This document shows positions 3,179 through 49,639 of a stretch of 64,000 bases of DNA, piece after piece. The stretch is from Owenia fusiformis (Eukaryota > Annelida > Polychaeta > Sabellida > Oweniidae), in NCBI GenBank assembly GCA_903813345.2, contig CAIIXF020000009.1, positions 30,726,740 through 30,790,739 of the forward strand. Reading direction: 5' to 3'. The notes below the pieces were generated by a model. It had not been told where the DNA came from and did no database searches. It saw only the letters and a program-made list of their open reading frames with translations. Each line of letters begins with the position of its first letter. Position 1 is the first letter of the stretch. The position numbers were made by a program, and so were the translations under genes.

Positions 3179-4280
3179 AAATGTTCTGATAGCTAAAGGT
3201 TTTTCATTCAAATGAATCAACCCTTTAAATAACATGTTCTTAATGCAAAATATGCTAGAATAGTATGAATAAATGTTTGCAGTTCTTATGAGTTTGTGCA
3301 ATGACGTAATCAAGTAACTTCTTGTTCCATTGTAGATAAAATGTTGATCTTCTTAAGACCTACATATTGTGTTGTCGAATGGCTGCTCAGTGGTTTTAGT
3401 TTTACACTTACTTGGGGCTATATGAGGCAACTACATAGGTACCCGTATAGATATCTCGAGTGTTATTGACTTTTCGGCTTATCTCTACTAATCCACTCGA
3501 GTTAAGCCTTTAAGTCAACAAACCGACCCTTCGCTAACCCTAAGGCCCGATAAGAGGCTTCCTAGCCCCCGAAAATCGACCCTATTTCCCTCCCCCACCA
3601 CGCCCCTACCCAGGGTATAGTTAGGGGTGAAGTCTTCTAGGCCTAACCTAACCCCCCTAAACACTTTGGCGCGGGTCCCATCTCTCTAGCTCTTCCCGTT
3701 CGGGAGATAGAAATCGGGCTGTCGGAGCCGCTTTCTTTGATCTCGCCGACACCCCCTCCCTCGCATATTCAGGCAATTTCAGTTATACCCTTACTATACT
3801 CCTCCAGTCTTAACCCTAATCGCTATAACGGATAAAATTGGTTTTTACCGAACCTAACATTATAATAAAAAGTAGTAGACTGATTTCACGTCAAAATTCT
3901 CTTGATACCACACAATAATTGTAAAATAAAACTCCCTAATAAATGATGTCTTTCATTTGTCGAAATGTAGCCACATCCCCACATTCTAACTTCTGTGAAG
4001 TTTTACGTTTTAAATCATATTGTCCGTGCCTGCATGTATTTTTAGCTCAAAATAGTGGCTGAATTTTACGAACTGTACATTCGATATGTACATTAAATCA
4101 AAACTTGTAATCATAATAGCATAGTAGTCTACTAACATTTTCATTCAATAATGACATAACAATAATATGTTTTTAATACATAAACAACTATATTCTGATA
4201 TATTTTGTTTTTGTTTTCAATATTCTTGATGATTAAGTTAACTATCTTATCTAGCATAAAACAATATAACAAAAAATATT

Positions 4281-4830
4281 TTACACTACATAGTCTCTTT
4301 GAAAGGTGCAACTTTGAAAAGTATCAGAATGTGATCTTTGGATTCTGATCTGCATATCCGAAACATAACGCTTGACCAAACCATCGTTCAATTGCGTATT
4401 TGAACAGAAGTCTGGTAATATATCTTCTACACTTCTGCCCTTGCACCATTGTACAGAAAAGTATATGGTGTATTGTCCACACACTGATGAATCCAAGCTT
4501 TGAAGTCTAACTGAAGTCTAGATAATTTTTCTTTTTAGCTCTTTGCAAATGTTTCGAAATCTGAGTTGTAACAGTAATAAGACGGTGCGTGGCCGTAGGA
4601 ATCTACAAAATACACGTTTCTTCTGCTATCTCGCTATCTCTGGGTACTATAAAGAGGCACCAATGTTGACCCTCTTGAGATGTTTTGTCTGTATTACTAA
4701 CTAATATCTCGCACTTTGGAGCATTGTGTAGGACTAAGCTACGTAACTCATCGCTACCAAACACTCCGCAATGTTTATTTTTGGTTAAGTTTTTGCTTTT
4801 CAAAATACAATTAATCTCCTCCGTGTTCAT
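4281..4830 (-). pseudogene. Adenovirus/Polinton-type cysteine protease, copy A (left TIR), broken
   Basis: Mirror copy of 23822-24369. It carries the same GQHW block, the same frame break before VDSYG and the same in-frame stop. It also has a private 2-nt TA insertion near 4462 that shifts the frame again just before the GRSVED block. Both arms share the older lesions, so those predate the last copying of one arm onto the other. Confidence 0.66.
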
Positions 4831-5132
4831 TTCGTCGTTAAATCAGTTGAATATAACCTTTCTGGACTTGTCTATTTCGAAGACTGTGGGGAAGACACGA
4901 ACTGAAATGTTATCTTCGATATTGAGTTTACATGGTTAAGACTTACAAAGTTCAAGCAGTCAACTTATACCAATATTGCGTGGATTAAATGTAGTTTCCC
5001 GTCCATAATGACCATTATAATAAACCCATTTTCCCAAAACGCAAAGAACCATATTCTAATTGTGTTTTGTATTTTTATCGACTTTTTCATGTTTACAATA
5101 ATTTTCACTAATTTAACTATTAATAACAAATT

Positions 5133-5441
5133 TAATCCGCACATTCTCTTCGGAAGCTGTCAGAAGGTGATCTTTGCCTTTTTATCTGCATATTTGAACA
5201 GAAAGTTTAACCAAGCCATCGTTCACTTGGGTATTTGTACTGAAGTCTGATTATATATCTTGTACAGACCTGCCCTTTCACCATTGTACCGAAAATATAT
5301 CAGTATTGTACACATACTGAAGACAAGGCATACAGAAGTTGAGACAACGTTTCTTTGTAATCTCTTCGTAAATGTTTCGAAATCAGAGTTGTTATGAGAC
5401 TGTATGTGGCGGTATGAATCTATAAAATAGACGTTGGACAT
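5133..5441 (-). pseudogene. Protease copy B, C-terminal half only (left TIR)
   Basis: Mirror image of 23211-23519 with an identical 72-residue open stretch (5223-5441) and the same stop before the ND block. See the right-arm copy for the motif comparison. Confidence 0.58.
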
Positions 5442-5551
5442 TCCTCGCCTGTTCTTGTAGATAACATACTACATACGTGTTCATCGAAATTAATGCTATT
5501 GTTCAATATTCGGCCCGAATATGTAGAGTGCTTAACGCTTTCGAGGAAAGT

Positions 5552-6012
5552 TGTCATTAAAAGTGAATTGCATATTGGATTTTGAGAAAAACAATTGTTA
5601 TCTTGAAAGTGTTAACAATAAGGTGATACCTCTTACAGAATTTAAATAGACAATTTAACATTCTTTCAGCTCAATCTTCAATATTTGAATATAAAATTAA
5701 ACCATCAGTCCAAAGTAAAAGATTTATCTTATGACCATCAATTTAAATTTTACTCTCTTTTGCTAAATAGTGTGACAAATCGTCAAGGAAGTGGTTGAAT
5801 AAGTAATTACTTAGCCCTTTATGTCGGCATATGTCTCGAAAGTAGGGGCGATACCATCTTTGAGTTTCAGACAAGTTTTCGATTTTTTATCCATTCTGAA
5901 AAATGATTATATGAAACTAGTTGAATTAGGTCGTATATCCAGTTTGCATGGTTTACACATTAAACATATTAACATAATCGAACGCTTTTCTGAAGTCAAT
6001 CCTAATTCGTTA
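5552..6012 (-). pseudogene. Non-LTR reverse transcriptase fragment (left TIR)
   Basis: Mirror of 22640-23100. Motif A lies on the minus strand at 5971-6000. It carries the same frame breaks and the same degenerate catalytic motif. Confidence 0.7.
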
Positions 6013-6463
6013 TACTAGTTTCTTTTACTCGTCTATAGTGAGATATATGAGTGCGTAAGATAAATAAAGTGTGCTTTGTCTGATTTAGATTGCGTCGACA
6101 ACATTGCCTGTGCAAGCTTAAACATTTATTACTCTATAATTATCAGGATCAAACGTACTAGTATACAATCTTGCTTAGAAATAGTTTATAACATGCCTAT
6201 TCCCCATTCATTTGGGTAATCTACACTTAGAAAAGCATGATTAAAAGAATGGTGATATAGTCCATGGTATGAAATCTTTAGGACGTAGAATTCATGAATA
6301 ATTGAGAGAAATCGTTATCATTATCTTCCTAAAATCTGATTGTATCCAGCGGTAAGGTCAAAGAAGAAACAACCACCAGAAAACTTGATGATAGCCACAA
6401 GTAATGTCGCGGAAGAATTGTAAGGCGTTCGATTGCATATGTCTCTTATTGATTATTACACAT

Positions 6464-7955
6464 TAGTTAAACATTTTATGTATATATAGATATACAGTTT
6501 ACACTCACCAATCTTTATCTATTCTGATTTGTCCGAAAGAAAAATATTTTTACTATATGGCATAACAATCACTACAAAATGACCATATAAATTACAATTA
6601 GATTTGCCATAAAGTTCAAGGGTTAAGATATGTGGCCACACCTACTAATTCCTGTATGCTTTTCTTGGGGTAGGACACCACTGAGTCATCTAATCTTAGG
6701 TAAAATATACCATAACTTTCAAAAAATGCAATTACAGTATTGGTTAGACCCTATAAATGATTTCCAATAATGAAATTGTGATACAGCTACACACACTTTT
6801 TATTTGAACCTTTGACAGCAAAGATGGAAGACAAAACAAAGAAAAACGAATGAATTATTTTTTAATAATGGGATTTTTTCATAAAGGAACAAGATGTCAT
6901 CCTCCAACTTTTAAGCATATGATCAACATGTATAAAAGTATAATATAACATGACTAATTAAAACCAGAATATGCATATACCTCAAATTAAAAGGTAAATT
7001 TCTGAAAAATACAAGAAAATCTGAGAAAATGTCAAATATTTCTTTTTAATTTATTTTACTTCATAGAAATATCTGAGAAAGATAACTTGCCATGCATAGG
7101 ATGTCCCCTACCTCCCCCTATAATATGCATAATGAATAAAAAATATGTGATTTTTAATAAAACTAAAATAAGTTATTCTTTGTGGTAAAAGTGCGAAAAT
7201 AGGTGGCGCCACTATATTGAACTTCAAATCTTGACCTTATTTTCAGCCCGATCAACCTCGAATAAATTTTGCTCATTCCAATGTATGTTTGCCATAAAAT
7301 ATTGTTGGTATTTTGCTTATATTTTACCATTAACCTACATTTAAATAGATATTTATACCCCTACCCCCATATTTGAAAATAAATAGATGGCGCCACTTTA
7401 ATTGCTAATAGCGAATTCGTTTACCACTCAATTTTTACTCCACCCAAGATAAATTTACTATAGAGAGTGTCTGGAACAAAATGATACCAACAAACCTTTT
7501 TCCCCAGGCGAGTAACGAAATCGGAGCTGGGGACGGGATCATATTGTGCATCTTATGATTTGTGGCATAGATTTTATTCTATATAACGAATAATATACAG
7601 GTAATAGACTGATGCAATTCGGAGAAGTATTGGCCATCTCAGGTTTTGCATTTTCAACATGAGTTTTCTTTTAGACTTTAATATTTTAGACTTTAAGGTT
7701 TTCTCAGTGAATCGGACGTTGACTTCAATTTTATTCGAACCCCAGGCCAAAAATCCTTTCATAGTAATGCAGTTTTTCACCATACAGAACTTGAACTTTA
7801 ACATATAAAATCGAAGTTATCTTTTAATTAAACTTGTAAAGTTAATTATGTGTTTTACGTCCTGTTGAGTGAAGGTATCTTATCAAATTAGTGACAATAT
7901 ACCCATAAGATCGGAGATCACAATTGTAAATTTTAATTTGGATTCGTAAGAAGTA
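6464..7955. other. AT-rich interior of the giant element, no gene
   Basis: Low-GC sequence with frequent stops in all frames. Two short 'ggcgccac' phrases (near 7206 and 7389) are the only GC-rich landmarks. I recognise no Polinton core gene and no complete transposon. Confidence 0.5.
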
Positions 7956-8279
7956 CGAGAGGTGATCAATAAGTAATGGACGCTTTTTTTACACAGATAC
8001 TTTTTATAGACCAATCCCTTTGATTTTCCTACCAGTGATACGTCATTCAATTATCTATCAATCCTGAAGATTTGAAGACAAAATATATAGTCCCCGATCT
8101 GATTTCCAAAAGGGCTCTAGAAAAGGGGTTTTGTTGTCCGGTACTTTCCCACATAAAATGATTGTACCGTTTGAAAGAACAGACTTCCCTCTTAAAGAAA
8201 ACACCTCTTCTATTGATGTAAACAGGGGCAAAGGCACCAAAACGGGGTTAGACAAGGTGGCATTCTGAAGTCTCACTTT

Positions 8280-8790
8280 CTTGTCATCACGATTCCAGGT
8301 AAACCATTAGACGGATTTACTTCAAATTTTCACACATGTTACATGGTAAGAAGTTCTAGAGCTGATTAACTTTGCGGTGGCCATCTTGCATTCTGGTTGC
8401 CATCTTGGAATTTTTTTCAGATAAATATTGTCATCGCGATTCCACAAAACCACATAACAGATGTACTTCAAATGTTCACACATGTAACATTGTAAAAAGT
8501 TGTAGACCTCATTATTTTTTCGGTGGCCATCTTGCATTCTGGCAGCCATCTTGGAAGTTTAAAGATAAATCTTGTCATCACGATTTCAGGAAAACCAAAC
8601 GGATTTACTTCAAATTTTTCACACATTTTACATGGTAAGAAGTTCTTGAGCTAATTAACCTTTCGGTGGCCATCTTGCATTCTGGCGGCCATCTTGGAAG
8701 TTTTTTGGATAAATCTTGTCATTGTGATTCCAGGAAAACCACTTTACTGATTTTCTTGAAACTTTTACACATGTTACAAGGAAGGTTACA
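8280..8790 (-). repeat. 118-bp tandem repeats, left arm (about four units)
   Basis: Each unit contains 'gtcatcacgattccagg', 'ttcacacatgttacatggta' and a pair of 'ggccatcttg' cores on the plus strand. Reversed, the cores read CAAGATGGC, close to the YY1 site AAGATGGCGGC. Confidence 0.78.
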
Positions 8791-9714
8791 TGCTACCTTT
8801 TATATTGATATAAACAGGGCCAAAAGGTAGTAAAGTGGGGTTACACAAGGTGGTATTCTAAGGAGAATGTTATCTATTTTTTCTGTATTTTAAACCACAT
8901 AATTTGACATAAATGCATATTTGGTGTATGATATCATGTTTTATATTGATAGAAACATGGGCAAGAGGCGCTACAATGGGGTAACTCATGGTGATATTCT
9001 AAAATACATATTTTTACTCAGCTTCTGTACTTTATACCACTTAAATGCATTTTGTGTATGACATCGATTGATTTTTAGAATAAATAACTACATTTCATCA
9101 AAAAGAAAAAAGATTATTGAAAACGTCAAACATTTCTTTGAAATCCATTATTGCACAGCGATTTTTGAGTGCGAAATGTATGCTAAATTGGCCTTGATCT
9201 GAGTATATAACGGAATTAAAGCTCTTTTAAACGAAAATGTAAATGTGTGGAAAACCTTTCACTGTGCATCATGTCAACGAAATGTTCTTCATGCAGTTGA
9301 ATTATCTTCTGGACAGGTGATCACACAGAAGGAGAGACCTGCGTATCATATCCTTACTAAATATAAACAAAAATGACAAATGAGAAAGGAAAAAAGTGTA
9401 AAGCAACCTAGTGGGAAAAGCAAACTGTAAAGTGTAAAACTGGCAAACAAAAATCAAACCTGAATATCCCAAGACAATAATCTAATATGGGAATAAACAG
9501 CATCCACACCGTTCAATGACCAATTCCTCATCAACGACCACAACTCCGAGGGACATTCCATTCATACTGAAGTCATTAAAATACATGTTGAAGGAAAATT
9601 GAAAATAATGATATCCAATACTCATAAGATCAAAAATAGTTGTAGATACTATAGTACTCATAAAAGCTGCAGATAACGTTTCTTCATCGGGAAAGCAAGC
9701 GTCTCTTAGTCAGA

Positions 9715-9830
9715 TATTAACTAACGAGCTGGTTCAGAGCACCAGCATGTGAAACTATGTGAATGGGCTCTGTATCCACAATGTTGCGAGTTCGAGACAC
9801 ATGTGCTCTTTGTGTTTAATAATCAACAAA
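9715..9830 (+). repeat. Possible tRNA-derived SINE fragment
   Basis: The sequence has an A-box-like stretch 'agctggttcagagc' (near 9726) and, about 60 bases on, 'gttcgagac', which matches the RNA polymerase III B-box consensus GWTCRANNC. It cannot be folded into a full tRNA by eye and no 3' tail or duplication is clear. This is a weak call. Confidence 0.3.
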
Positions 9831-10369
9831 AATCACTTAAACCTGCACTAGAACTGTGTGTCAGATCGATATAAGTATCGGGTTTGGAAACTAATTGAAC
9901 CAACAAAAAGAACTTAAAAAACACTGCTACAATATCAACATAAGCTTTCAATAGTAGTGACGATGCAGAAACATGCAAAATGTCACCACACCTTGTTAAG
10001 TATACAGTACACATTAACTACTGAACAGTGTCAAGATAAACATTCGAAGCTATTACAATATGTCACCCAATCACTAGTGGTGGTGACATAAAAATAATGT
10101 ATAGAAAAATCTACTGAACCAAAATAAACTTTGCGATAGAAGAACTGATTGTTTACTCTAAGTTTTCAACTAAATATATTTCTAATAAGCAATGTTTTAT
10201 CGAAAAGAAAAAATAATTTGATGTTATATAAAATCAAATAAATTAATTATATTTTTTTTCGTTGTGTTAGTTACACCAGTAATAATAAACCTGTTTATAA
10301 AGTGGTGTTAACTAGACTATAGAATTTAACAGTCATAAAACCTAAAAAAAATATACCAGGAAGGGATCA

Positions 10370-11165
10370 TTGTGAATGTAAATGTATAAAGTGTGAAAAT
10401 TTGAAGCAAATCTGTAAAGTGGTTTTTCTGGAATCGTGATGACAAGATTTATCTACAAACTTCCAAGATGGCCGCCAGAATGCAAGATGGCTATCGGAGA
10501 GTTAATCAGCTCTAGAACTTCATACCATGTAACATGTGTGAAAATTCGAAGTAAAACTGTGAAGTGGTTTTTCTGGAATCCTGATTACAAGATTTATCTA
10601 TAAACCTTCCAAAATGGCTGCAAGAATGCAAGATGGCCACTGAAAAGTTAATCAGCTCTAGAACTTCATACCATGTAACATGTGTGAAAATTTGAAGTTA
10701 ATCTGTTAGGTTGTTTTCCTGGAATCACGATGACAAGATTTATCCCAAAATATCCAAGATGGCCACCAGAATGCAAGATGGCTGCCGAAAATGTATTCAC
10801 CTCTATATTTTCTTACCATGTAATATGTGTGGAAATTTGAAGTAAATCCGTTTGGATTTCCTGAAATCGTGATGACAAGATTTATCTTAAAACTTCCAAG
10901 ATGGCTGCCAGAATGCAAGATGGCCACCGAAAAAATAATGAGGTCTAGGACTTTTTACCATGTAACATGTGTGAAAATTTGAAGTACATCTGTTATGTGG
11001 TTTATGTGGAATCGCGATGACAATGTTTATCTGAAAAAAATTCCAAAATGGCCGCCAGAATGCAAGATAGCCGCCGCAAAGTTAATCAGCTCTAGCACTT
11101 CTTACCATGTAACATGTGTGAAAATTTGAAGTAAATCCGTCTGATGGTTTACCTGGAATCGTGAT
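10370..11165 (+). repeat. 118-bp tandem repeats, right arm (about six to seven units)
   Basis: These are the same units as at 8280-8790 in the opposite orientation. Each has two CAAGATGGC-type cores, 'catgtaacatgtgtgaaaat' and an 'aatcgtgatgacaagattta' spacer. Units differ from each other at many positions. Confidence 0.8.
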
Positions 11166-11355
11166 GACAAGAAAGTGAGACTTCAGAATGCCACCTTGTC
11201 TAACCCCGTTTTGGTGCCTTTTGCCCCTGTTTACATCAATAGAAGAGGTGTTTTCTTTAAGAGGGAAGTCTGTTCTTTCAAACGGTACAATCATTTTATG
11301 TGGGAAAGTACCGGACAACAAAACTTTTTTTCAGAGGGTCCAGATCAGGGACTAA

Positions 11356-12186
11356 TATGATATATGTTGATATATCCTTATTTCCGTGAAGGAGGTACAG
11401 GTACCCCGGGACCGACATTTACGTCACATATTCTCTTTTAGCCAGTTTGGCAAATTTCAGTTAGATTTGAACTTTTTATATGCAACAAGTGTTGTGTTGT
11501 TTGAAATTTTTTGCTGACTGGTAACACATAAACAGAAAGTATTGTGATGTCAGAGTGTTGAATGGAAGGGGTTTGCAGGTCAATTTGAGAAAGCATTGTG
11601 GAAGAAAGGGATGGTGAGAGAAAGGAACACCCTACTCCATATGGACAATGCACCTGCCCACAGATCTCAAAATGTTTAGAAAACAATATCTCTGGACCTC
11701 AAAATTGAGCCCTTGGCCAATGCACCTTATTGTCCAGACCTGCTCACATGTGACTTATTCATTTCTATACTACTTATTTCTATAGAGAAAGGACGCAGGT
11801 TTATTGCCATTGATGAAATAAAACAACCTGTCAGTGTGCAACTGCATCTTGCTACCATGTCAGAGAATGGATTCAGCCTTGTCTCACAATCTTGAGTTAA
11901 GAGGATGAGGAATTGTGTACATGTAGCACTTGATGTAACCCATGTAGAGGGCCCTGTTGAATGAATGTGGCATGAATACCACATAGTGATGATAAAATAT
12001 TCAAAATCAACTATGGCATAACAAAGTAAGGTAATTTATGACCATAATGGTTTGTTTTGTTCAGCCTACATTCAACTGCATTGCATGTTAAACAAGCTAA
12101 AATAGCTTCAGAATGTTTGACGTCATGTCGGTCCCGGGGTACCTACACATCCTTCACGGAAATAAAGATATATCAAAATATATTAC
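11356..12186 (+). mobile_element. Mariner-like remnant inserted in the right arm
   Basis: Inverted ends of about 65-70 bp contain 'ggtaccccgggaccgac' at the left and its mirror 'gtcggtcccggggtacc' at the right. Both sit next to a 'tttccgtgaagga' block. Comparison with the left arm of the surrounding element (around 8075-8100) shows that this whole segment is extra sequence. Confidence 0.68.
11560..11895 (+). pseudogene. Mariner transposase fragment, broken
   Basis: Mariner transposases use three acidic residues in a DDE/D fold. Here a frame through 11638-11663 encodes HMDNAPAH, the second catalytic Asp block, and is then stopped by TAG. About 60 bases on, an APYCPDLLTCDLF block matches the family's HPYSPDLxPSDxxLF third-Asp region. 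After it comes a block of the type GRRF...DEI. Stops and frame changes separate these pieces, so the gene is dead. The N-terminal DNA-binding half is not recognisable. Confidence 0.72.
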
Positions 12187-12318
12187 ATGTTTTGTTTTCA
12201 AATCTTCAGAGTTGATAGATAATTGAATGATGTATCACTGGTCAGAAAATCGAAGGGATTGGTCCATAAAAAGCATCTGTGTAAAAAAGCGTCCATTACT
12301 TATTGATCACCCCTCGTA

Positions 12319-14140
12319 CATCTGTTTTAAACTAACCTTTGTTGTATGGAAAAGATCAATATTAATAGACTGAGGTGATCGTGGAAATATTGCTAAGAAC
12401 AGCTTTATTAAAGATTCATCGATATATTACGTTTTCAAGAGTTATTTTATGGTTTGTGTCCTACCTCAATAATGTTTAGATATCGATTAATTGAATGGTC
12501 AACATACTTAAAATAGTCATAAGTGATGATTGCCCAATGCACTATATTTTTGAATCAAATATGAAATATGGACGGGGCACTTTATTTCGAAACCTTATGT
12601 AATTTAAATTTATCATTTTTTGACAGAGCTATTGTTTATTAAGACTTCTGAGATCAGCTTCACATACCCGGGCTCACATATCTCGTACGATTGTTAACAA
12701 AAAATGTAAATTGTGAAGTTACAAACAACTCGGTTAAATTATCTCATTGGCTATTAAAAAGATAACTTAGAAGCCAAATTTTCTATCCAAGAAGCTAGAC
12801 TTAAACCCACTGTGGAACCATTACTTTATTATTTACCAAGTGAAAGTTCATAGTACGTATACGATATTTTTACCATTGGTATTAATTCCCCATCAGCGAT
12901 GTCAATAACGATCAGCAATGTCAACATATCATCAATAAATATTATATGATATACGCTCTTTCTTTGAAAATCTTTTCAGTGATCATTATTCAAAACCGAT
13001 CATCATATAACTAATTTATCCTATGACAAGTGAGGTTTTACAAGTGAAGTTTTCAGGACACCCTGAATATTAAGGTTTGTTTTCTAAGCGTTCTCATTAT
13101 TTTCGAGAAATTTATCATCATTTTGGTTAAGAAAAATTCTACGGTGTGCTGGATCTATTTTGACAGTTTTGCTTCAGCAACATATTCTAACAAATTGACT
13201 GTTTCTACACTGAATAAAAACATTTTCCCGGGACTATTTGGATCGGGAGATACGCAGCGGGAAATATACATTGGAATATATCAATTCTATATCCCGATGT
13301 TTTCATGATTGTATAATATTTTGAAGATACGATCTTATATGACTTGCAGAAATAAATAGGAAGTAATCGTGTTTAGTTGATTGAATTATGGGAGTAGTGA
13401 AGTCAATGATTTAATGAATAAGAGCAAATCTTTTTAATTTGAACAGGTCATTCATCAAATGACACTGAAGATTAACTTAAAATAGATTGTCTATCTATAT
13501 ATTCTTATGCATGAGAGACATGTTATAATGTTGGAGAACCAATGATTATGATAATTTCACCCGTTCACATGCAGTTCCCATTATGATTAAAAATTGACAT
13601 GGAGTAATTGCACATTTGAAAAGGTAAAACTTACAGCAATCAACCGAGGATTTACATGTAAACTCAATTGCATTTGTTTTTCGCGAGAAAAAAGTTTCTC
13701 TCATTGACGTCACAGATTTTTAAGCGGCTCATTATAATATTCATGAGCTGACTTTATGGAAAGGTAAATAACTGGAAACAAACAGCTCCTCTGAATGAAA
13801 TTCCCATTGGAATGGAATTGATAACAAGGCACTAGACGAGATACAGGTGTTCAATGATTAATAAGATGTCAACAGTATTTTAATAAATAAAAAGCTAATC
13901 ATGAGATAAGTTATTTTGTGTTGCAGAACAGAGTGGTCTATAATGATAATTCATTTCTTAGCTGACAAGGGGGCTGGCTAGAGTTGACCAATCACAAAAA
14001 CTTAATCCGCATGTGGTTTATGTCCAACACTTCATTATATCAGTATTCATTTCTCTGGATTAGGAGAATATACCTGTATGGTATTATACTCTAAAATATA
14101 TGATTATCTAATTTACATTGGATTATAGAAGTGTATATAC
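12319..14140. other. AT-rich interior, no gene seen
   Basis: Non-coding stretch inside the giant element. The frames found are short and unlike known proteins. No clear repeats or transposon ends are visible. Confidence 0.5.
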
Positions 14141-14141
14141 A

Positions 14142-16810
14142 GGGTGTTCCAAAAGTAACAGGACTGGTGCTGGCATTTTGTCAATTCTGCAACGAGTGTG
14201 TTCAAATTTTCACAAATTGTACTTTGACATAGTGCAACTAAAATTGTAAAGTTTCAGAAAAAATGATAATATGCGGGTATCTTATTATTGAAATATCGCA
14301 TTTTTTCAAAATATATTGTTTATCAGGCTGGCAATACACTTTATTATTATCGTGTCCTTGCCTCTGTTTTAAGGGTCAATGAGTCAGATAATATTAAAAT
14401 ATGCCACAATTACTCATTAGATACTGTGCAAAGATGCAAATTAGCATATTTTATAATTTAAATATAGCACTTATTCAAAATATTTTGTTTATCAGGCTTG
14501 CAGTACAATTTAAATTACTGACTAATTCAGGGTTTCCTTAGTGGTTTAAATGGGTTGCCAAAAATTTACTATAAAAAAGTATATATGCACATTAAGGCGG
14601 CCATTATTGAAATATCAAATTTCATCCATATCTTAAAAAGTAAGAATGATAGCATCACAATTGTTGTGTCCTTGCCTATGTTTTAAGGGTCAATGAGTCA
14701 TATAATATTAAAAGATTAAAAATTTACATTATTTTATAATTAAAATATCCCACTTATTCAAATATTTTGTTTATCAGGCTTGCAGTCATACTATGTCCCG
14801 ATCTCATGTACATTTACAGAATTACTAACACGCAATGGTACATCTATTTTCGGACGACTCTTGAACAATGGTTTTAGCATAATATATAACATGTTAGATA
14901 TCAAAACATAGGTAATTGAAATGAAAATTATATGGTATATTAATATTTAATTTTTATTTCCTATTTTTTAGATAAGGGACGCTTAAAAGACTCTATTGAG
15001 TTTTAAAGTGCACATTTTTACCATGTAAAACGTTGCATTTGATAATTTTGAAATATGGTAATTTGGTCATAACTTTTTTATTCCTTAACCAATTTAGTTC
15101 AAATTCGGTATGGGACAACAATTGCTGATGGGCGTTTATGACGTCACATGATATTGTGACGTCATCAACGCATATCCGCCATCTTGGATGCCCAAGAAAT
15201 AGTAAAAATGTGTAAAACTCGAAAAATAAATGTTGGTAAGGACCTTAGGCCCTTATTATCTTATTCAAAAATCAAACCTATGAAAAAGATGTCATTATTA
15301 CTTATTCTATATATGTTCAACTAGAACTTAACGTTAAAAATATATGTTTTGTATAAATTTTGTTTACATAGCAAGCATTTTGCGACTTGTGTCTGTTTTG
15401 TACCTAGAAAAAAATTGATAGAAATATGGCGGGTTTCAAAGACTCTCGTCATTTAAATACACGAAATTATGTTTTTCTAGTGACATTCAACTAGATATTT
15501 TATAATGTCATAAAAGTATTGCCCTTGTACTACATATACTATAATTTTAAGTTCAGTTGCATTGCTTTGCATGTATTTGGACCAGGTAATATGACTTGGT
15601 CAAATTCAGCATTCTTTTGTTCCAAAATATTTTGACGTTGTAAAAATTGATTAGGGTGTTTTTAATAGCAGTCTAAAATGATATCAGGAAAACAAATGAT
15701 AACATATTTGGTATGTAGAGAATGCTCATAGCCCATATTTTATGATTCATCACGTTTAACATCTTTAGATTAAGCTAAGTATGAGATTTTCCTTAAAACG
15801 TGCGTGACAGAGAATTGTCCCATCTCGATTTTTTTTCCTTTGAATTTTAGAAGGCTGAATCCAGGGAAGAAAGGAATGAATATAAACTTTGAAAATACAT
15901 GATATTATATTATCATAAAAATGCTCATAAACTCAAGATTCCAATGATATATCACATGACTATCATCCCTTCATAGATCTTTAGTTATTGTTTAATATGT
16001 GCGTGACATAATTTGTCCCATCGACGATTTTTTTTACAAAAATAGAGAAATACGACGTCATATCAGCGCTACAGCAAATCGTGAAGAACAAAATATCTCT
16101 CAAGTCATGGCATGATAGTATTTTGAACAAAATATTCTAAATGATCGGTTTTTGAGGACGGTAGTGAATTAGACCATTCAAGGGGTTGTATAGAAAGATT
16201 CTTCACATGTAGTTCAGACAATTTTAATTATTCTGAGTAGCGGATAGTCATTAATACTGATAGCGGAAAGTCATTTATCATGAATGTGTTCATATTTAAT
16301 TTCGTTATTTTATTTCAATTTGATACCCTATTAACACGTGTAATCTAGCGTTCTTGTTCAGTTAATGACTAAAGTGCATATACGACCTGAAAGCCCGTGT
16401 CTAAATCTACAAAATAATGTTTACTTTATTTGGATTAAATAACAATTGATGACACCTCAAAGCATCAACAGGCGGCCGTTTTAGCATTATTTTCACTGTT
16501 TGCAACGTAAATGTACATGAGATCGGGACATAGTATGAGTACAATTGAGACTAACAATACAGACTAATTGAGTGTTTCCTTTTAGTGATTTACTTAGGTT
16601 TGCGAAAATATGCAAATTTGAGAGGCCATATCTTCAAAAGTAAAAATGATAGGATCACAGTTGTTGAGCCCTAACCCAGGTTTTAAGGAAAAATGAATAA
16701 GATAATGTTTAAAAATAAAAGAATAACAATAGATATTGTGCATATATGCAAATTTTATAATTGACATTTCGCTTTTATTCAAAATATTTTGTTAATCAAC
16801 CCTGTGATGT
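14142..16810. repeat. Diverged tandem repeats split by a TIR element
   Basis: A phrase close to 'attcaaaatattttgtttatc' recurs near 14310, 14470, 14760 and 16775. It is accompanied by 'aagggtcaatgagtcata' (near 14365 and 14685) and 'gactaattcagggtttcctt' (near 14520 and 16562). Units are about 200-300 bp apart and well diverged. The left edge carries 'cagggtgttccaaaagtaac', which resembles a mariner-type end. The array is interrupted by 14787-16537. Confidence 0.6.
14787..16537. mobile_element. TIR element of unknown superfamily (1.75 kb)
   Basis: The 31-bp ends are exact inverted repeats starting CATACTATGTCCCGATCTC. They are flanked by the possible 3-bp duplication AGT (14784-14786 and 16538-16540). 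The inside is non-coding and holds a palindromic pair of TGACGTCA sites. It also has two similar blocks beginning 'gtgcgtgaca' (near 15800 and 16002). No transposase frame is present. A 3-bp duplication fits several superfamilies, so I leave it unassigned. Confidence 0.65.
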
Positions 16811-16942
16811 CTGTACTGTTCAAATGTAAACCTCGAACTATAGATAAAACTATAGATATACATGCATTCTTCTGTCTGACGAGCGCTTGTAGCCTTTTGG
16901 ATTGCATGCACTTAGTAGGTGTGATTCCGTGTCCTATCCGTT

Positions 16943-17266
16943 TTGCGAATGATTAAAGCTCTTAAATGCTCTCAATGTATATGGCTTTCCTGGATATTAC
17001 ACGAGGTACTAAGTGAATTTGAGGATTCAACTGAAGATCTGATGGAAACAGGGTATCATTTTTTGCCAGCACTGTATGGCCAGCCACCATGGACATCAAT
17101 AAAAATGGCTCGCTACAAAAAATATTCCAAGAAGAAGGGCAAGCCTATGCGCTTCATGGCATTACCTCCAACCGAAATGAATTTAATTCTCCACGTGCTA
17201 CAAGCACATTTGCAAGTGATGCTGTGGAAAGATGTGGAAAGTGATAACTTGATAGATGTCATGTAG
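16943..17266 (+). pseudogene. Fragment of an unknown transposon-associated protein
   Basis: A 107-residue open stretch includes 'KMARYKKYSKKKGKPM', then 'LPPTEMNLILHVLQAHLQVM' and 'LW'. The pattern LPPT...H..RAHLQ...W is one I recall from unnamed, repeated invertebrate proteins, probably encoded by mobile elements. I cannot name the family. No intact gene structure surrounds it, and the frame closes just where the family usually continues with a short Pro/Asp-rich stretch. It lies between the TIR element and the satellite array. It could be an exon of a host gene, but the repetitive setting argues against that. Confidence 0.35.
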
Positions 17267-17561
17267 GTGCAAAGCTCAAGGCAAAGCCTGTGGGAGTGAA
17301 GATGATGATGTTCATGATCAACCGTTGTACATAATATATAAGGATCTGTTTTTAAGATATTGTCTCATGATGTGACTGTGAAGACTGTGATACTTCAATA
17401 ATGGCTGCGCTTATTTGCATAATCACAATAATTCTTGCTCTAATCTTGGGTTTTTAATTTTATCATTTAACCTAGAAGACCTGGGTTTAGGTATCAATAC
17501 TTTGATGCTTCTCTTCTTAGTCTCCGAACTATATTATTGAAGATTATCAATAAATGGATGT

Positions 17562-19210
17562 AATTAGATCTTTAAAAACAAACTCTGGAACTGTATCCTC
17601 AGATGCAGAGATAATGTAAGAGGAGGTTCTCTTCTATAAAGAATTGTATAAATCTAAAGCTTGCACTAACGAAAAGCTTGTTACATACTTTAATAGCATT
17701 AATTTTCCAAAAATATTAGATGAAAATGACAAAAACTTTTTGATTGGAAAAGTAACAAATGAAGAATGCTTAAAAGTGATAACAAATATGAAGTTAAATA
17801 TATCTCCTGGGTCAGATGGATTTACATCTAATTTTTACAAGTTCTTTTGGCAGGATGTTAGTTTGTATGTTATAAATGCTATAAATGAATCCTATGAAAC
17901 TGGCATACTGCCACCATCTTTTAGAAAAATTATAATTAGTTTACTTTTTAAAAAAGGAGATAGGGAACTTTTGAAAAACGTTAGACCTATCTCACTCTCT
18001 AATACATACTACAAGATACTAGCTTTTATTTTGGCAAAGCGAATGCAAAAAGTAGGCCTAATTGCAAAAATAATTGGGTCTCAGCAGACTGCCTATATAA
18101 ATAATCGTTTTATTGGAAATAGTTGTCGACTTACGCTTGATATTTATGAATATGCTGAAAATTTTGAAAAAGAGGGCGCTATTTTATTCATTGATTTTAA
18201 AAAATCGTTGAAACATTCAAAAAATTCAATTTTCCTGAACAGTCTTTTTAAAAACTTTGAATCTCAATTGCATGCTCTAAAAGCTGCATGGATTCCAAGG
18301 TTATATGATAGAAAACAAATGATGAATAAAATACCATATCTCTATTTTGATAATATTGTAAATGATTTTGATGTATTATTGAAAATGAATAGTTTTGATT
18401 TGCAATACTTTCAGAAAATACCAATTTTTTTTATCAGCAAGTATTATGTGCTCATGCCAAATGTAAAGACAAAAAAAATCTTGAAAATATGAAAACATGT
18501 GATATCCTGCAAGAGACTATATGGGGTAATAGTTTGTTTACTGTAAACAAAAAAACTCTGTATTTTAGAAATTGGATTGAAAGTGGTATTGTCTATGTAA
18601 AGGACCTAATAATAGAGGATACATTTAATGATACCAACCACATATTTCAAAAGTTACAGGAAAAACAAAACTGGATTTCTGAATTTTATCAAGTTAACTC
18701 AAGTATGAATATTGCAAGAGGTTTTATTGATGTCAATAAAGCAAAATACACAAACATTCCAAATTACAGATTGAAAGCAAATAATGTTTTATTCCAAATT
18801 AGAGATCAAAAATCAAAATTCTTTTATGAAATTTTGAAAAATAAGCAATCTGAAAAATGGTTCATGAAAAATAAATGGGAACGTGAATTTTGCTTCTTAA
18901 ATAATGAAACCTTCGATGAAATAAATTGGGGAAACTTTTTTTTTTACAAAGATAAAATGTAAAGAAAAGAAGATAGCTAATTTCAACTATAAGATTATAA
19001 ACAACATCCTTCCTAGTCTTACATTTATATGGAAAAAGTGAAACATATAATTGCAGTTTGTGCGGAGAAGTATGTACATTAAAACATTTGCTTTTCACAT
19101 GTTCACTCTCCCAAAATGTTTGGAAATATATCTTTAATATATCAGGTTTAAAGATAACATATAGAAAGTTGGTAATAGGCTATAATGGAAATGACAACCA
19201 GACTGTATTT
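17562..19210 (+). pseudogene. Tx1/L1-like ORF2 fragment with a deleted RT core
   Basis: The polyprotein normally carries an endonuclease, RT and a C-terminal zinc finger. Here coding begins inside the region before RT. Recognisable blocks are SPGSDGFTSNFYKFFW, then RPISLSNTYYKILAFILAKR, then IDFKK of motif A. Immediately after, the sequence jumps to the C-terminal region, so the palm with the catalytic YADD is missing. A stop lies near 17617. The frame changes at 18489-18492, where the open stretch 18489-18962 continues the C-terminal region. A zinc-finger-like C..C...H....C block survives near 19050-19095 in broken frames. The copy cannot move by itself. Confidence 0.82.
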
Positions 19211-19437
19211 TATTAGTATTGTAACATTTGTGATCTATAAAGCATACATCCAAGAATTAAATAATGGAATAAAACGGAATTTTGAAGGAATTGTTAAAAC
19301 TCTAAAATTCGAAATTTATGTAAAAATGTATTTTTTAAAAACAAATGGAATATGATAAGATTGTAATTGATTTACTACTGCTGTATCTGTACTTACTTTA
19401 GAAACTGAAATAAACTATATTGAAAAGAAAAAAAAAA
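17562..19437 (+). mobile_element. Tx1/L1-like LINE insertion, 5'-truncated and internally deleted
   Basis: The 15-bp direct repeat TCAATAAATGGATGT flanks it exactly (17547-17561 and 19438-19452), and it ends in an A-rich tail (about 19424-19437). That is the signature of target-primed reverse transcription. The insert is 1.88 kb and sits in the satellite array. Confidence 0.9.
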
Positions 19438-21060
19438 TCAATAAATGGATGTCCGCCTTGATTTGCTTGAACACATTTGCTTTGGCCACCTTTGATCTCT
19501 AAGAGGAACCCCATGCTATATTAACCCGCAAAACATGCAACGATAACAAGAGCAAAAAAGAAAACATGTGTCATTTGCAATGAAGCAGTTACAAGGGGTG
19601 ATTAACAAATACTTCTCTGCTTAGTCTCCGAACTATATATTGAAGATTATCAATAAATGGATGACCGCCTTGATTTGCTTGAACAAAATAGCTATTCTTC
19701 AAATCCTATTTATGTAAGTTAATCTTATTCTCCGATCCTGAGAACCTGAGTTTAGTAAAATAGATAACAATTGTGATGTTATTTTATTCTTAGTATTCGA
19801 TAATAGACACCCTAATTAAATTTGCATAATCACAATCATTATTGTTTTAATCTTTTTTGTTAATTTACCTTTTATTCGTTGACCCTGGGTTTAGGCACCA
19901 GTATTGTGATGCTTTATTGATTAATCTCCGAAATATTGAAGATAATCAACAATTTCATAATGACCGCCATAATTTGTACGATCACAATCATTATTGTTTT
20001 AATAATTTTTATCATTTTATCTTATTTTTTGACCCAGAAAACCTGGATTTAGACACCAGTATTGTGGTGCTACTGTGGCGAGTCTCCAGAATATTGAAGA
20101 TAATCAATGACTTGATAATGGCCGTCCTAATTTGCATGATCACAATTATTTTCGTTTAAATACTTTTTTCATCATTTCATCTCATTATTGCCCTGAAAAC
20201 CTAGGTTTAGACACCAATATTTTGCTGCTACTGTACTAATATTGAAGGTTATCACTATTCCGATAATGGCTGTCCTTATTTTGCATTAAGAATAAAATTA
20301 GTGCTCTAATCATGATTTTAATAATTTCATCTTATTCCCTGACCCTGAAAACCTGGATTTAGACACCAGTATTGTGATGCTACTGTGCTGAGTCTCCAAA
20401 ATATTGAAGATAATCAATGACTTGATAATGGCCGTCCTAATTTGCATGATCACAATTATTTTCGTTTAAATACTTTTTCATCATTTCATCTTATCTTATT
20501 ATTGACCCTGAAAACCTAGGTTTAGACACCAATATTGTACTGCTACTGTACTATTATTGAAGGTTATCATTATTCCGATAATGACTGCCCTTATTTTGCA
20601 TTAAGAATAAATGCTGTAATCATGATTTTAATAATTTCATCTTATTCCCTGACCCTGAAAACCTGGATTTAGACACCAGTATTGTGGTGCTACTGTGGCG
20701 AGTCTCCAAAATATTGAAGATAATCAATAACTTGATAATGGCCGTCCTAATTTGCATGATCACAATTATTTTCGATTAAATACTTTTTATCATTTCACCT
20801 TAGTATTTGACCTTGTAATCCTAGTTTTAGACACCAATATTGTCATGCTACTGTACTAAGTTTACAAATATTGAAGGTTATCACTATTTCGATAATGGAT
20901 GTCCTTATTTTGCATAGAGAATAAAATTAGTGTTCTAATCTTGATTTTTTAAAAATAATTTCATCTTATTCCCTGACCCTGAAAACCTGTGTTTAGACAC
21001 AAAAATTTTGATGTTTCTGTGCTTACTTTTCAAAATATTAAAGATAATCACTTTTTTGGC

Positions 21061-22188
21061 AACCCTGCTAAATCGCTTCAGAAAACCCTTATTGTGGTGA
21101 TTTCTAAAAATAAAACATCGTCTTTTTTACAAATTCATACGTTCAGAAAATGACAAACGGACTATATACATTTAATTTATGTGAAAGAACATTTAGTATT
21201 TATTATACGTTTCTTTCTCTGATTATTACTTGACATTGAAGAATACGGGAGTTATTTTGTACTGCATTTTTCGAAAACCACCCATTCCCCACCACTATCC
21301 CACTGTTTTTTTATTGCCCAACTTACAATGATCCATTGCGTTTACAACTAAATACCATATTCTATTATTTGGCAAAACAATTTATCTAGTTTTGTTACAT
21401 CATTGTAAACGAGCAGAGACAAGTTTGGTGTTTGTAGTTCAAGTACACAAATGAAATTGAGTGACAATATTGGAAATAACAAGATTCAAGAATAAGCTGA
21501 AGTGTATATGGCTTTAAATAGAGTTAATAAATTATGATAAAGCTGCTGGAATAATTGATGGTTTACCCTCAAATATTATTAAAACTGCAAATCACTCATT
21601 CCTGATATTAGTTCATGGTATGATTTCCGAATAATAAATATATATACTATAGCGCAGCAACATTTGAACCAATATTTATGAAGGTGTATATGTCTCGATT
21701 CTTTAAAAATACCATTTGCTGAAAAAGTTCCGGCTTTCGGGTCGAAAAATGTCTTTCAACACAAGGGGTCAAAAAACTTAAATATTTTGATTCGAACTTT
21801 TATACATTTTATAAGACACAGACCGTTATTCTAAGCATACGAGCAAAAAATTGATTATCATAATGTAAACATATACTATGATTTTACTGTAGATGTCGGT
21901 GTTTGATTAATGTAATTACGCAAGTGTATTTTTCAGATTTTGTTTGAATTTTCAAATATGATTCAACAGAATTGTGTGGAATATTTAGGTAATTTATGAT
22001 TGGGAACATATTAGTTTTCCTACCATTTGAAACATTTTATTACCAGAAATTTTCCATATAATTGCAAGGAGTTTAACAACAAATTATTGTTCATGTTTTA
22101 TAAAACATAATACAATAACAAATAGGTATAAGATATATATCTAATTAAATGTTACAGAGGTATTGGAATGTTCATATATTCCAAGGGC
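21061..22188. other. AT-rich interior, no gene seen
   Basis: Non-coding sequence between the satellite array and the right TIR. I recognise no coding motif and no complete repeat. Confidence 0.5.
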
Positions 22189-22639
22189 ATGTGTAATAAT
22201 CAATTAGAGACATATGCAATCGAACGCCTTACAATTCTTCCGCGACATTACTTGTGGTTTTCATCAAGTTTTCTGGTGGTTGTTTCTTCTTTGACCTTAC
22301 CGCTGGATACAATCAGATTTTAGGAAGATAATGATAACGATTTTTCTCAATTATTCATGAATTCTACGTCCTAAAGATTTCATACCATGGACTATATCAC
22401 CATTCTTTTAATCATGTTTTTCTAAGTGTAGATTACCCAAATGAATGGGGAATAGGCATGTTATAAACTATTTCTAAGAAAGATTGTATACTAGTACGTT
22501 TGATCCTGATAATTATAGAGTAATAAATGTTTAAGCGTGCACAGGCAATGTTGTCGACGCAATCTAAATCAGACAAAGCACACTTTATTTATCTTACGCA
22601 CTCATATATCTCACTATAGACGAGTAAAAGAAACTAGTA

Positions 22640-23100
22640 TAACGAATTAGGATTGACTTCAGAAAAGCGTTCGATTATGTTAATATGTTTAATGTGTAAA
22701 CCATGCAAACTGGATATACGACCTAATTCAACTAGTTTCATATAATCATTTTTCAGAATGGATAAAAAATCGAAAACTTGTCTGAAACTCAAAGATGGTA
22801 TCGCCCCTACTTTCGAGACATATGCCGACATAAAGGGCTAAGTAATTACTTATTCAACCACTTCCTTGACGATTTGTCACACTATTTTGCAAAAGACAGT
22901 AAAATTTAAATTGATGGTCATAAGATAAATCTTTTACTTTGGACTGATGGTTTAATTTTATATTCAAATATTGAAGATTGAGCTGAAAGAATGTTAAATT
23001 GTCTATTTAAATTCTGTAAGAGGTATCACCTTATTGTTAACACTTTCAAGATAACAATTGTTTTTCTCAAAATCCAATATGCAATTCACTTTTAATGACA
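22640..23100 (+). pseudogene. Non-LTR reverse transcriptase fragment (right TIR)
   Basis: Read on the plus strand, 22652-22681 encodes IDFRKAFDYV, a classic RT motif A. Downstream lie a frame resembling the palm segment after motif A, a block like the LFN...DDL segment (near 22850), a decayed catalytic motif reading WTDG where YADD is expected (about 22940-22951), and a block like 'CKRYHLIVNTFK' of the following region. Several frame changes and stops separate them. It is a short dead fragment of a LINE-type RT, captured inside the TIR. It is not part of the known Polinton gene set. Confidence 0.72.
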
Positions 23101-23210
23101 ACTTTCCTCGAAAGCGTTAAGCACTCTACATATTCGGGCCGAATATTGAACAATAGCATTAATTTCGATGAACACGTATGTAGTATGTTATCTACAAGAA
23201 CAGGCGAGGA

Positions 23211-23519
23211 ATGTCCAACGTCTATTTTATAGATTCATACCGCCACATACAGTCTCATAACAACTCTGATTTCGAAACATTTACGAAGAGATTACAAAGA
23301 AACGTTGTCTCAACTTCTGTATGCCTTGTCTTCAGTATGTGTACAATACTGATATATTTTCGGTACAATGGTGAAAGGGCAGGTCTGTACAAGATATATA
23401 ATCAGACTTCAGTACAAATACCCAAGTGAACGATGGCTTGGTTAAACTTTCTGTTCAAATATGCAGATAAAAAGGCAAAGATCACCTTCTGACAGCTTCC
23501 GAAGAGAATGTGCGGATTA
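23211..23519 (+). pseudogene. Protease copy B, C-terminal half only (right TIR)
   Basis: This stretch aligns by eye with the C-terminal half of copy A (24036-24350). It has a 'tctattttatagattcatac' block parallel to copy A's VDSYG coding block, then 'gatttcgaaacatt', then a 'gaacgatggcttggt' block parallel to NDGLV. The conserved Gly of the DSYG motif is changed to Arg. A stop at 23427-23429 falls just before the ND block. Copies A and B lie in tandem about 830 bp apart, so the TIR holds a local duplication of the protease gene, with B more decayed. Confidence 0.6.
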
Positions 23520-23821
23520 AATTTGTTATTAATAGTTAAATTAGTGAAAATTATTGTAAACATGAAAAAGTCGATAAAAATACAAAACACAATTAGAATA
23601 TGGTTCTTTGCGTTTTGGGAAAATGGGTTTATTATAATGGTCATTATGGACGGGAAACTACATTTAATCCACGCAATATTGGTATAAGTTGACTGCTTGA
23701 ACTTTGTAAGTCTTAACCATGTAAACTCAATATCGAAGATAACATTTCAGTTCGTGTCTTCCCCACAGTCTTCGAAATAGACAAGTCCAGAAAGGTTATA
23801 TTCAACTGATTTAACGACGAA

Positions 23822-24369
23822 ATGAACACGGAGGAGATTAATTGTATTTTGAAAAGCAAAAACTTAACCAAAAATAAACATTGCGGAGTGTTTGGTAGCG
23901 ATGAGTTACGTAGCTTAGTCCTACACAATGCTCCAAAGTGCGAGATATTAGTTAGTAATACAGACAAAACATCTCAAGAGGGTCAACATTGGTGCCTCTT
24001 TATAGTACCCAGAGATAGCGAGATAGCAGAAGAAACGTGTATTTTGTAGATTCCTACGGCCACGCACCGTCTTATTACTGTTACAACTCAGATTTCGAAA
24101 CATTTGCAAAGAGCTAAAAAGAAAAATTATCTAGACTTCAGTTAGACTTCAAAGCTTGGATTCATCAGTGTGTGGACAATACACCATACTTTTCTGTACA
24201 ATGGTGCAAGGGCAGAAGTGTAGAAGATATATTACCAGACTTCTGTTCAAATACGCAATTGAACGATGGTTTGGTCAAGCGTTATGTTTCGGATATGCAG
24301 ATCAGAATCCAAAGATCACATTCTGATACTTTTCAAAGTTGCACCTTTCAAAGAGACTATGTAGTGTAA
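23822..24369 (+). pseudogene. Adenovirus/Polinton-type cysteine protease, copy A (right TIR), broken
   Basis: The family is a papain-like-fold cysteine protease that matures virion proteins in adenoviruses and Polintons. Motifs in order: a GQHW block carrying the catalytic-type His (near 23985), a VDSYG block with the family's Asp-Ser-x-Gly arrangement (near 24049), a block resembling the C-terminal GRSVED region (near 24210) and an NDGLV block (near 24263). The first part is open from ATG at 23822. The coding frame then shifts by about 24037, and a TAA lies at 24115-24117. The catalytic Cys-Gly pair cannot be placed with confidence. The gene is therefore inactive. The family assignment rests on motif order recalled from knowledge and was not tested by a search. 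Confidence 0.68.
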
Positions 24370-25158
24370 AATATTTTTTGTTATATTGTTTTATGCTAGA
24401 TAAGATAGTTAACTTAATCATCAAGAATATTGAAAACAAAAACAAAATATATCAGAATATAGTTGTTTATGTATTAAAAACATATTATTGTTATGTCATT
24501 ATTGAATGAAAATGTTAGTAGACTACTATGCTATTATGATTACAAGTTTTGATTTAATGTACATATCGAATGTACAGTTCGTAAAATTCAGCCACTATTT
24601 TGAGCTAAAAATACATGCAGGCACGGACAATATGATTTAAAACGTAAAACTTCACAGAAGTTAGAATGTGGGGATGTGGCTACATTTCGACAAATGAAAG
24701 ACATCATTTATTAGGGAGTTTTATTTTACAATTATTGTGTGGTATCAAGAGAATTTTGACGTGAAATCAGTCTACTACTTTTTATTATAATGTTAGGTTC
24801 GGTAAAAACCAATTTTATCCGTTATAGCGATTAGGGTTAAGACTGGAGGAGTATAGTAAGGGTATAACTGAAATTGCCTGAATATGCGAGGGAGGGGGTG
24901 TCGGCGAGATCAAAGAAAGCGGCTCCGACAGCCCGATTTCTATCTCCCGAACGGGAAGAGCTAGAGAGATGGGACCCGCGCCAAAGTGTTTAGGGGGGTT
25001 AGGTTAGGCCTAGAAGACTTCACCCCTAACTATACCCTGGGTAGGGGCGTGGTGGGGGAGGGAAATAGGGTCGATTTTCGGGGGCTAGGAAGCCTCTTAT
25101 CGGGCCTTAGGGTTAGCGAAGGGTCGGTTTGTTGACTTAAAGGCTTAACTCGAGTGGA

Positions 25159-26058
25159 TTAGTAGAGATAAGCCGAAAAGTCAATAACACTCGAGATATC
25201 TATACGGGTACCTATGTAGTGAGGCATTCCAAACATATGCAGTCCAAGTTTCCATAGGTCCAAATTTGAATCCGTTGAATTTGTTGCATAATCACATTTT
25301 CCAACCAGTATATTTCTCTGAAGTTGATTGTCGAGTTTAGCATTCATATCACGTATCATTGTCGAGTATTCGTTGTTCCGAGATTGAAGAGATGTAATAA
25401 GTTTCTGCGATTCCTGTAGTTGAGATATTAGATGATCTGGATTTAAATCAGCTTTTTGATCATTTGTTGCATATGCAGTGAGTTCCTCTTCTAAAGATAA
25501 AATACGTTTCTTTTGTGACTTCAATTGTAATTTAAGATTAGCTGTATCCGTCTCCATTGTGCGAATTTTCTCACGATAAATGTCATTACCATGTTTTTGT
25601 CCATAAAGTTCGCTTTCTATTTTCTTGTAGTTTTTGACAGCAGTTATATATTTATCCATGTCAAACGTCTGTGTCTGCGAATACTTGCTGTGGTTCGGTT
25701 TGTCAGTTTCCTTTATTTTCTTGGTTTGCACGGATGCCGTTTTAAGGTCAGGGTGCATGTTGTTCGGAATTTTGATGCAATTAGTATTCGAAGTTGGCTC
25801 ACAATGATCCTTGTTACGGTGTCCATATGTGGCGCATAATGAACAATAGTGACGTGCCATCTTGTATCTCTTACATGTTGCTTTATGATGTCCAGGAATT
25901 TTGCAAAACCAACAAGTTTGAATTGAAGAGTATTGCGTGTCACGAAATAAATATCCATTGATGTTTTCCAAATCACTTCGCATTTTATCCAAGTGTTCGA
26001 GGAAAGATGACATAAGGTTAGTCATTGTTTCTAAAGTTTCAGAAATCGTTTTCTCCAT
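25159..26058 (-). CDS. Gag-like protein with zinc knuckles, C-terminus cut by the giant insertion
   Basis: Gag packages the retrotransposon RNA. The frame starts at ATG 26058, about 105 nt after the primer site, and stays open for 299 codons. The last 20 or so are encoded by the right TIR of the inserted element. Residues 49-62 are CWFCKIPGHHKATC, a perfect CX2CX4HX4C zinc knuckle. A second, CSLCATYGHRNKDHC (CX2CX4HX5C), follows about 10 residues later. After that, residues of about 140-240 look alpha-helical and coiled-coil forming, rich in Glu, Lys and Leu heptads. The usual capsid domain before the knuckles is absent, so this is a short, atypical gag. Beyond the insertion the same frame resumes at 3423 and ends at a TAA (3353-3355), confirming that the insertion split it. 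Confidence 0.78.
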   Translation of the reverse strand: MEKTISETLETMTNLMSSFLEHLDKMRSDLENINGYLFRDTQYSSIQTCWFCKIPGHHKATCKRYKMARHYCSLCATYGHRNKDHCEPTSNTNCIKIPNNMHPDLKTASVQTKKIKETDKPNHSKYSQTQTFDMDKYITAVKNYKKIESELYGQKHGNDIYREKIRTMETDTANLKLQLKSQKKRILSLEEELTAYATNDQKADLNPDHLISQLQESQKLITSLQSRNNEYSTMIRDMNAKLDNQLQRNILVGKCDYATNSTDSNLDLWKLGLHMFGMPHYIGTRIDISSVIDFSAYLY

Positions 26059-26164
26059 TTTGACAGCTTCTTGTTTACTAATTGAATATCCTTGATTGCC
26101 TAATAATATATCTGCCTTACCCCACTGTTGCTCGTGCTCACCCCACTCGCTGATATTTGTGCCT

Positions 26165-26182: not shown

Positions 26183-26183
26183 T

Positions 26184-26615: not shown

Positions 26616-26619
26616 ATAA

Positions 26620-30175: not shown

Positions 30176-30176
30176 T

Positions 30177-49634: not shown

Positions 49635-49639
49635 TTCTC

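Follow-up and report, generated by a model that had tools for sequence, protein, structure and literature searches.

How does a DNA element of more than 20 kb come to lie, apparently freshly inserted and with none of its recognised coding remnants intact, in an animal genome? This question is raised by a locus in the polychaete Owenia fusiformis (assembly GCA_903813345.2, contig CAIIXF020000009.1, positions 30,726,740 to 30,790,739 of the forward strand), a stretch of 64,000 nucleotides that is referred to below as the window and whose own numbering is used throughout. Within it, at 3430..25220, is a 21,791-bp element bounded by inverted arms and a 6-bp target duplication. An initial annotation, made from the sequence alone, had described it as a Polinton-like transposon that is devoid of Polinton core genes. 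Based on the results of repeat finding, self-comparison, arm alignment and family searches, all applied to the one copy in the window, the locus is on balance best explained by a non-autonomous, Polinton-derived DNA element that owes the growth of its terminal inverted repeats (TIRs) to inverted duplication and its mobilisation to enzymes acting in trans.

The insertion and its host retrotransposon

By repeat finding and arm alignment, the left TIR, or arm, occupies 3430..6463 (+ strand; 3,034 bp) and the right one 22189..25220 (- strand; 3,032 bp), with exact 6-bp copies of GAGGCA immediately outside them at 3424..3429 and 25221..25226. The alignment thus bears out the coordinates, arm lengths and exact duplication originally reported. 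A 7-bp duplication, TGAGGCA, is an alternative reading, but the ends of the element then become unequal, and the simplest interpretation is a duplication of exactly 6 bp, which keeps the ends symmetrical. Chance could not plausibly produce a 3-kb inverted repeat with a target duplication at its borders, and such an origin was rejected on the grounds of the arms, the exact duplications and the nesting within a long terminal repeat (LTR) element. CACTA-type ends were also rejected, in that the left end is without the leading C required by the CACTA end rule and the duplication is 6 bp. The outer end of the arm (3430..3760, + strand) is C-rich, as judged from composition and sequence, and its first 250 bp have a G+C content of 51 %, versus 34 % for the window overall; this segment, whose inner limit is a guess, is perhaps the original short TIR. 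The fold of the outer 200 nt is unremarkable (z -1.57), and a search of viral contigs found none that matched the first 20 bp of the arm.

The best evidence for integration, and for its recency, is a feature that had been overlooked: the 21.8-kb element is nested in a young LTR retrotransposon. Self-comparison of the window reveals two direct LTRs of 432 bp on the - strand, at 2225..2656 and 26184..26615, which are identical at 431 of 432 positions, have TG...CA termini and are flanked by the 4-bp target duplication ATAA at 2221..2224 and 26616..26619; near-identical direct LTRs, characteristic termini and a short target duplication, as expected of an LTR retrotransposon, are therefore all present. 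An open frame of this retrotransposon (25227..26247, - strand) is split by the insertion. Its Pfam matches are weak coiled-coil ones only (best E = 0.017), and from its zinc-knuckle and coiled-coil look we take it to be gag-like. When the empty site is rebuilt by removing the element together with one GAGGCA, the junction is bridged by a continuous frame of at least 343 aa, the figure being a lower bound because the joined piece ended at the LTR edge. The LTR element itself (2225-3423 plus 25227-26615) is about 2.6 kb long without the insert and has one recognised gag-like frame, and it looks like a short, young, non-autonomous element. Given the 431/432 identity of the LTRs, the ATAA duplication and the interrupted frame, the 21.8-kb element is a real and probably recent integration; in the simplest order of events, it entered an LTR element that was already in place.

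Two other accounts of this arrangement were weighed. Inverted arms might result from misassembly or from a chimeric molecule, and both the near-perfect identity of the 3-kb arms and the fact that the basis here is an assembled sequence are in keeping with such an artefact; yet the exact 6-bp duplication at the outer ends, the continuous frame of the empty site and differences between the arms that are clustered and not random make it very improbable. It is similarly hard to credit that the insertion took place at another locus and that the whole 24.4-kb composite was then retrotransposed with the LTR element, in which case the LTR identity would date the retrotransposition. The LTR pair and the ATAA duplication do enclose the entire composite, as this account demands. 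However, a 24-kb RNA with 3-kb inverted arms would be an improbable template for reverse transcription, and a prior DNA integration would be needed in any case.

Equalised ends and old debris in the arms

Aligned as inverted copies, the arms differ by a single 2-bp indel and nine substitutions. The indel is a TA at 4462-4463 of the left arm, within a protease-like remnant. All nine substitutions fall between 5755 and 6447, i.e. in the inner 709 bp of the arm (5755..6463, + strand, on the left side), and the outer 2,323 aligned bases contain none, a clustering that departs from a uniform expectation (P = 2.1e-6; Fisher P = 2.0e-6). Because every substitution lies in this inner portion, the pattern suggests that the outer ends have been equalised; either the outer arms were made alike more recently than the inner parts, or the inner part has a separate history.

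From outside to inside, each arm consists of the C-rich end, a protease-like remnant, a second protease fragment and a reverse-transcriptase remnant. The first remnant lies at 4281..4842 (- strand) in the left arm, with its pieces in different frames, and at 23810..24369 (+ strand) in the right arm. In both places it is frameshifted and carries an ordered His-Asp-Cys motif (HW / DSYG / CGQY), the His, Asp and Cys codons starting at 4665, 4603 and 4481 on the left and at 23987, 24049 and 24171 on the right. Searched for in loose form and at the expected spacing, this motif set has exactly two matches in the window, one per arm, and no match appeared when the whole window was dinucleotide-shuffled 400 times, figures to be read with the fact that the motif was picked after the sequence had been seen and would also admit the related Ulp1 class. 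To our eye the NTD...GQHW and CGQY stretches are presumably adenovirus/Polinton-like as opposed to Ulp1-like, and the remnants are called protease-like at the level of motifs.

About 835 bp further inward is a partial second copy of the C-terminal part of the protease (5160..5435, - strand; right-arm counterpart 23217-23492), which is 75 % identical to 4324-4618 and, read in the frame of the first copy, is interrupted by two stops. Deeper still, a reverse-transcriptase remnant in the inner right arm (22619..23071, + strand) was recognised by tblastn and by a match to Pfam RVT_1 that is below the curated cut-off (E = 1.7e-4); its left-arm counterpart is at approximately 5581-6033 on the minus strand. 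Tracing this remnant past the inner edge of the arm, as a way of asking which arm was the source, gave only weak tblastn matches (E 0.046-0.14; 8008-8880 and 21384-21479), and hence no convincing continuation. Apart from the 2-bp indel in the protease remnant, the decayed gene content is common to both arms, which implies that its breakage preceded the formation, or the equalising, of the arms. Since the two protease fragments are 75 % identical and the second contains stops, while the enclosing LTRs differ by 0.2 %, this content looks much older than the jump. The proposal that the arms had come to include older gene debris therefore holds, in that decayed protease-like and reverse-transcriptase remnants are found in both.

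The interior, the missing core genes and competing origins

The 15.7 kb between the arms is made up of nested inverted repeats, a small DDE_3-matching element, a decayed long interspersed nuclear element (LINE) and tandem arrays. Repeat finding and self-comparison place older nested inverted-repeat elements at 7949..12323, including, at 11355..12188, a small element with 64-bp ends (89 % identical), which its weak DDE_3 match (approximately 11617-11820; E = 0.043, below the curated cut-off) marks as probably a mariner-type remnant. The reverse-transcriptase remnant of the decayed LINE is at 17620..18489 on the + strand (Pfam RVT_1 E = 1.6e-4, below the curated cut-off; tblastn best E = 7.8e-20). 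Related tandem repeats flank this LINE, at 17398-17560 and 19609-21056, as if it had entered an array. Nearby, a 113-aa open frame (16925-17263), for which Pfam gave no more than a weak match below threshold (E = 0.023), may resemble a repeated protein of animal genomes. A segment of about 100 bp (9549-9647) is 78 % identical, in inverted orientation, to 57313-57406 outside the element and is probably a dispersed repeat.

Such an interior, with its LINE, mariner-like and repeat debris and its lack of any Polinton match, would also suit a composite, in which two inverted, truncated 3-kb Polinton ends surround 15.7 kb of unrelated host DNA and are moved by an integrase acting at the outermost ends. 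The same interior is equally explicable as a dead Polinton overrun by nested elements, however, and two independent fragments would need later conversion to become near-identical. We regard the composite as improbable.

In the preferred explanation, a Polinton copy would have died and then gathered other transposons. Overwriting of one end by a copy of the opposite end would next have lengthened a short TIR to 3 kb and thereby taken protease and reverse-transcriptase debris into both arms, and an integrase from another Polinton copy would have integrated the block in its entirety after recognising its outermost bases. Equalisation would have been more recent for the outer 2.3 kb of the arms than for the inner 0.7 kb, its mechanism being either ordinary gene conversion or panhandle copying in the course of protein-primed replication. 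Both panhandle repair and terminal duplication are known from adenoviruses and poxviruses. That the mobilising enzyme probably came from elsewhere follows from the finding that no recognised coding remnant is intact, and the earlier view of a defective element moved by the enzymes of others gains from the combination of an apparently recent jump with the lack of any gene recognisable as intact, since a copy of this kind would have to be mobilised in trans. The size of 21.8 kb falls inside the range of 12.7-24.6 kb given for intact vertebrate Mavericks in the available part of a survey of these elements (PMC8097293).

Several observations weigh against this explanation. Based on a Pfam scan of all six frames of 6464-25220, with X at stops and E <= 0.5, there is no match to protein-primed DNA polymerase B, to a retroviral-type integrase, or to the packaging ATPase and capsid families; beside the unmatched integrase stands the one weak DDE_3 match in the small nested element. 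The same scan detected decayed reverse transcriptase but not the protease-like remnant, and heavily broken genes may therefore be missed. Its sub-threshold matches to CdsD_PD1, SCP2_Rv3818, WAK_assoc, Gp7_helical and DotU (E 0.05-0.21) were treated as chance, and Rfam and tRNA scans of the window returned nothing. The termini begin 5'-ACTACA, versus the common AG start of Polintons; the element ends are 5'-ACTACATAGG, which does not match the usual Polinton/Maverick motifs (AGT)2 or (AG)3, and ACTACA agrees exactly with none of (AGT)2, (AG)3 and (AC)3A. Nor did Pfam, NCBIfam, PDB, protein-database, phage and contig searches of the protease pieces identify a significant relative. Viral contigs gave 25 and 26 pattern matches with two of the pieces, none confirmed, no stretch with a degenerate CGQYC-type motif, and 12 stretches with an NTD...GxHWV motif, none of which has a Cys-Gly motif in the same open frame. 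GTDB contigs gave 135 pattern matches with one piece (0 confirmed), phage records none, and the protein database one candidate below threshold in one search and none in the other. The PDB sequence search produced one non-significant match over the HW motif (E = 1.6; 8oi3_A, a chain named Type III effector) and none with the C-terminal piece, and the only NCBIfam match was unrelated and sub-threshold (E = 0.014).

Three further points concern the timing of events. Between the two protease fragments, differences number 7, 9 and 13 of 50 at each of the three codon positions, counted over two ungapped blocks of known frame, and this mild third-position excess indicates, on few counts, that the fragments may have been under selection for part of the time. 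A third block (4527-4569; 3, 3 and 2 of 14, 14 and 15) was dropped as probably in the wrong frame. Divergence of the inner arm is not significantly above that of the LTRs (9/709 versus 1/432; P = 0.10), so that the inner-arm differences need not predate the insertion. Finally, the recency of the jump depends on a single LTR difference (0.2 %), and its range is correspondingly wide.

The failure to find a Polinton integrase or polymerase, along with termini that read AC and not AG, is also what lends weight to a different origin: a dead Polinton fragment may have been captured either by a foldback-type element or by a non-autonomous cut-and-paste transposon from a different superfamily that makes duplications of 6 or 7 bp (Dada and IS3EU are examples of such superfamilies), with the capturing element's own transposase acting in trans. 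The 7-bp duplication TGAGGCA is formally possible and would fit; against this, 6 bp with symmetrical ends is simplest, the size is within the Maverick range, and protease-like remnants near both ends have stretches that presumably are adenovirus/Polinton-like. The motif nonetheless admits proteases of the Ulp1 type, and these are found in other DNA transposons (PMC2836005, in the portion available), and long, expanded TIRs are known in elements such as Galileo (PMC3573991, likewise in part). Taken together, this origin is a less likely but serious contender.

Formal membership of the Polintons is accordingly not claimed for the element, because neither the known end motif nor the core genes were found when looked for and the protease is recognised from motifs; it behaves like a non-autonomous Polinton derivative. 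Of the label "Polinton-like", the part that stands is a DNA insertion with a 6-bp duplication and broken protease-like remnants, whereas Polinton identity itself is called into question by the AC ends and by a protease known from its motifs. Similarly, the absence of core genes is correct as regards polymerase B, integrase, ATPase and capsid, all unmatched, but needs amending for the broken protease-like remnant in both arms. A more far-reaching version of the preferred explanation, offered tentatively and thought rather unlikely in its entirety, would be that a dead giant Polinton persists as a very large non-autonomous element, that panhandle repair during protein-primed replication both extended its TIRs to 3 kb, across decayed genes and retrotransposon debris, and keeps their outer 2.3 kb identical, and that a living relative continues to mobilise the element in trans.

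Outside the element, the window contains an apparently intact LINE (28835-33764) with two long open frames of 330 aa and 1,263 aa, the latter carrying endonuclease and reverse-transcriptase domains; the LINE matched 32 proteins at 29973-33764. Collinear blocks of 68-87 % identity (43180-49649 versus 53972-61902) appear to represent an old duplication of several kb. There are also an array (58116-59027) in which a 62-bp unit is repeated in tandem about 15 times and an inverted repeat of about 190 bp (59451-59639 versus 61183-61372) that is 96 % identical and rich in CCATGG-type repeats.

Comparison with known systems

Eroded Maverick copies are usually regarded as fossils, and in the available part of the vertebrate survey 96 % of loci are eroded (PMC8097293). 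A phrase search of the literature, confined to open papers, turned up no paper with the terms "non-autonomous" or "defective" Polinton or Maverick. If the explanation preferred here is true, the recent, intact insertion of a gene-dead copy of 21.8 kb would mean that non-coding cargo is open to Polinton-type integration in trans, and that growth and equalisation of long ends can occur; the enclosing young LTR pair would serve as an internal clock, making the order of events testable.

Among known systems, the element shares with Polintons/Mavericks the 6-bp target duplication (GAGGCA on both sides), the possession of TIRs (3,034/3,032 bp), the 21.8-kb size and the protease-like remnant. It differs from them in its 5'-AC end, in the lack of polymerase B, integrase, ATPase and capsid matches, and in the gene debris inside its arms. 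As excerpted, the vertebrate survey gives TIRs of 46-1,447 bp (mean 402) for intact copies and end motifs of (AGT)2, (AG)3 and, in the swamp eel, (AC)3A (PMC8097293). With TIRs of 3.0 kb, the present element has roughly twice the longest of those figures.

Teratorn, one of the giant composite elements, is likewise a large DNA element with long inverted repeats, but it has a piggyBac-type transposase and herpesvirus genes (PMC6431247, from the part available), and families of this kind did not come up in the Pfam results obtained here. Ginger1, which in the accessible text of its description has a 4-bp CCGG/CCGT duplication and a TGT end (PMC2836005), was rejected in view of the 6-bp GAGGCA and the AC end. 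A parallel to the arms themselves is found in Galileo, of the P superfamily, and in foldback-like elements with expanded TIRs. According to the portion of PMC3573991 drawn on, the TIRs of Galileo grow by recruiting internal sequence, the copies with the longest TIRs are non-autonomous, and conversion between arms has been proposed, features that all have their likeness here, although Galileo belongs to another superfamily with a target duplication of another length and has shorter TIRs (18-1,250 bp). Since that same text, citing others, mentions expansion of Polinton inverted repeats as reported, the TIR growth proposed for the Owenia element is not new in kind.

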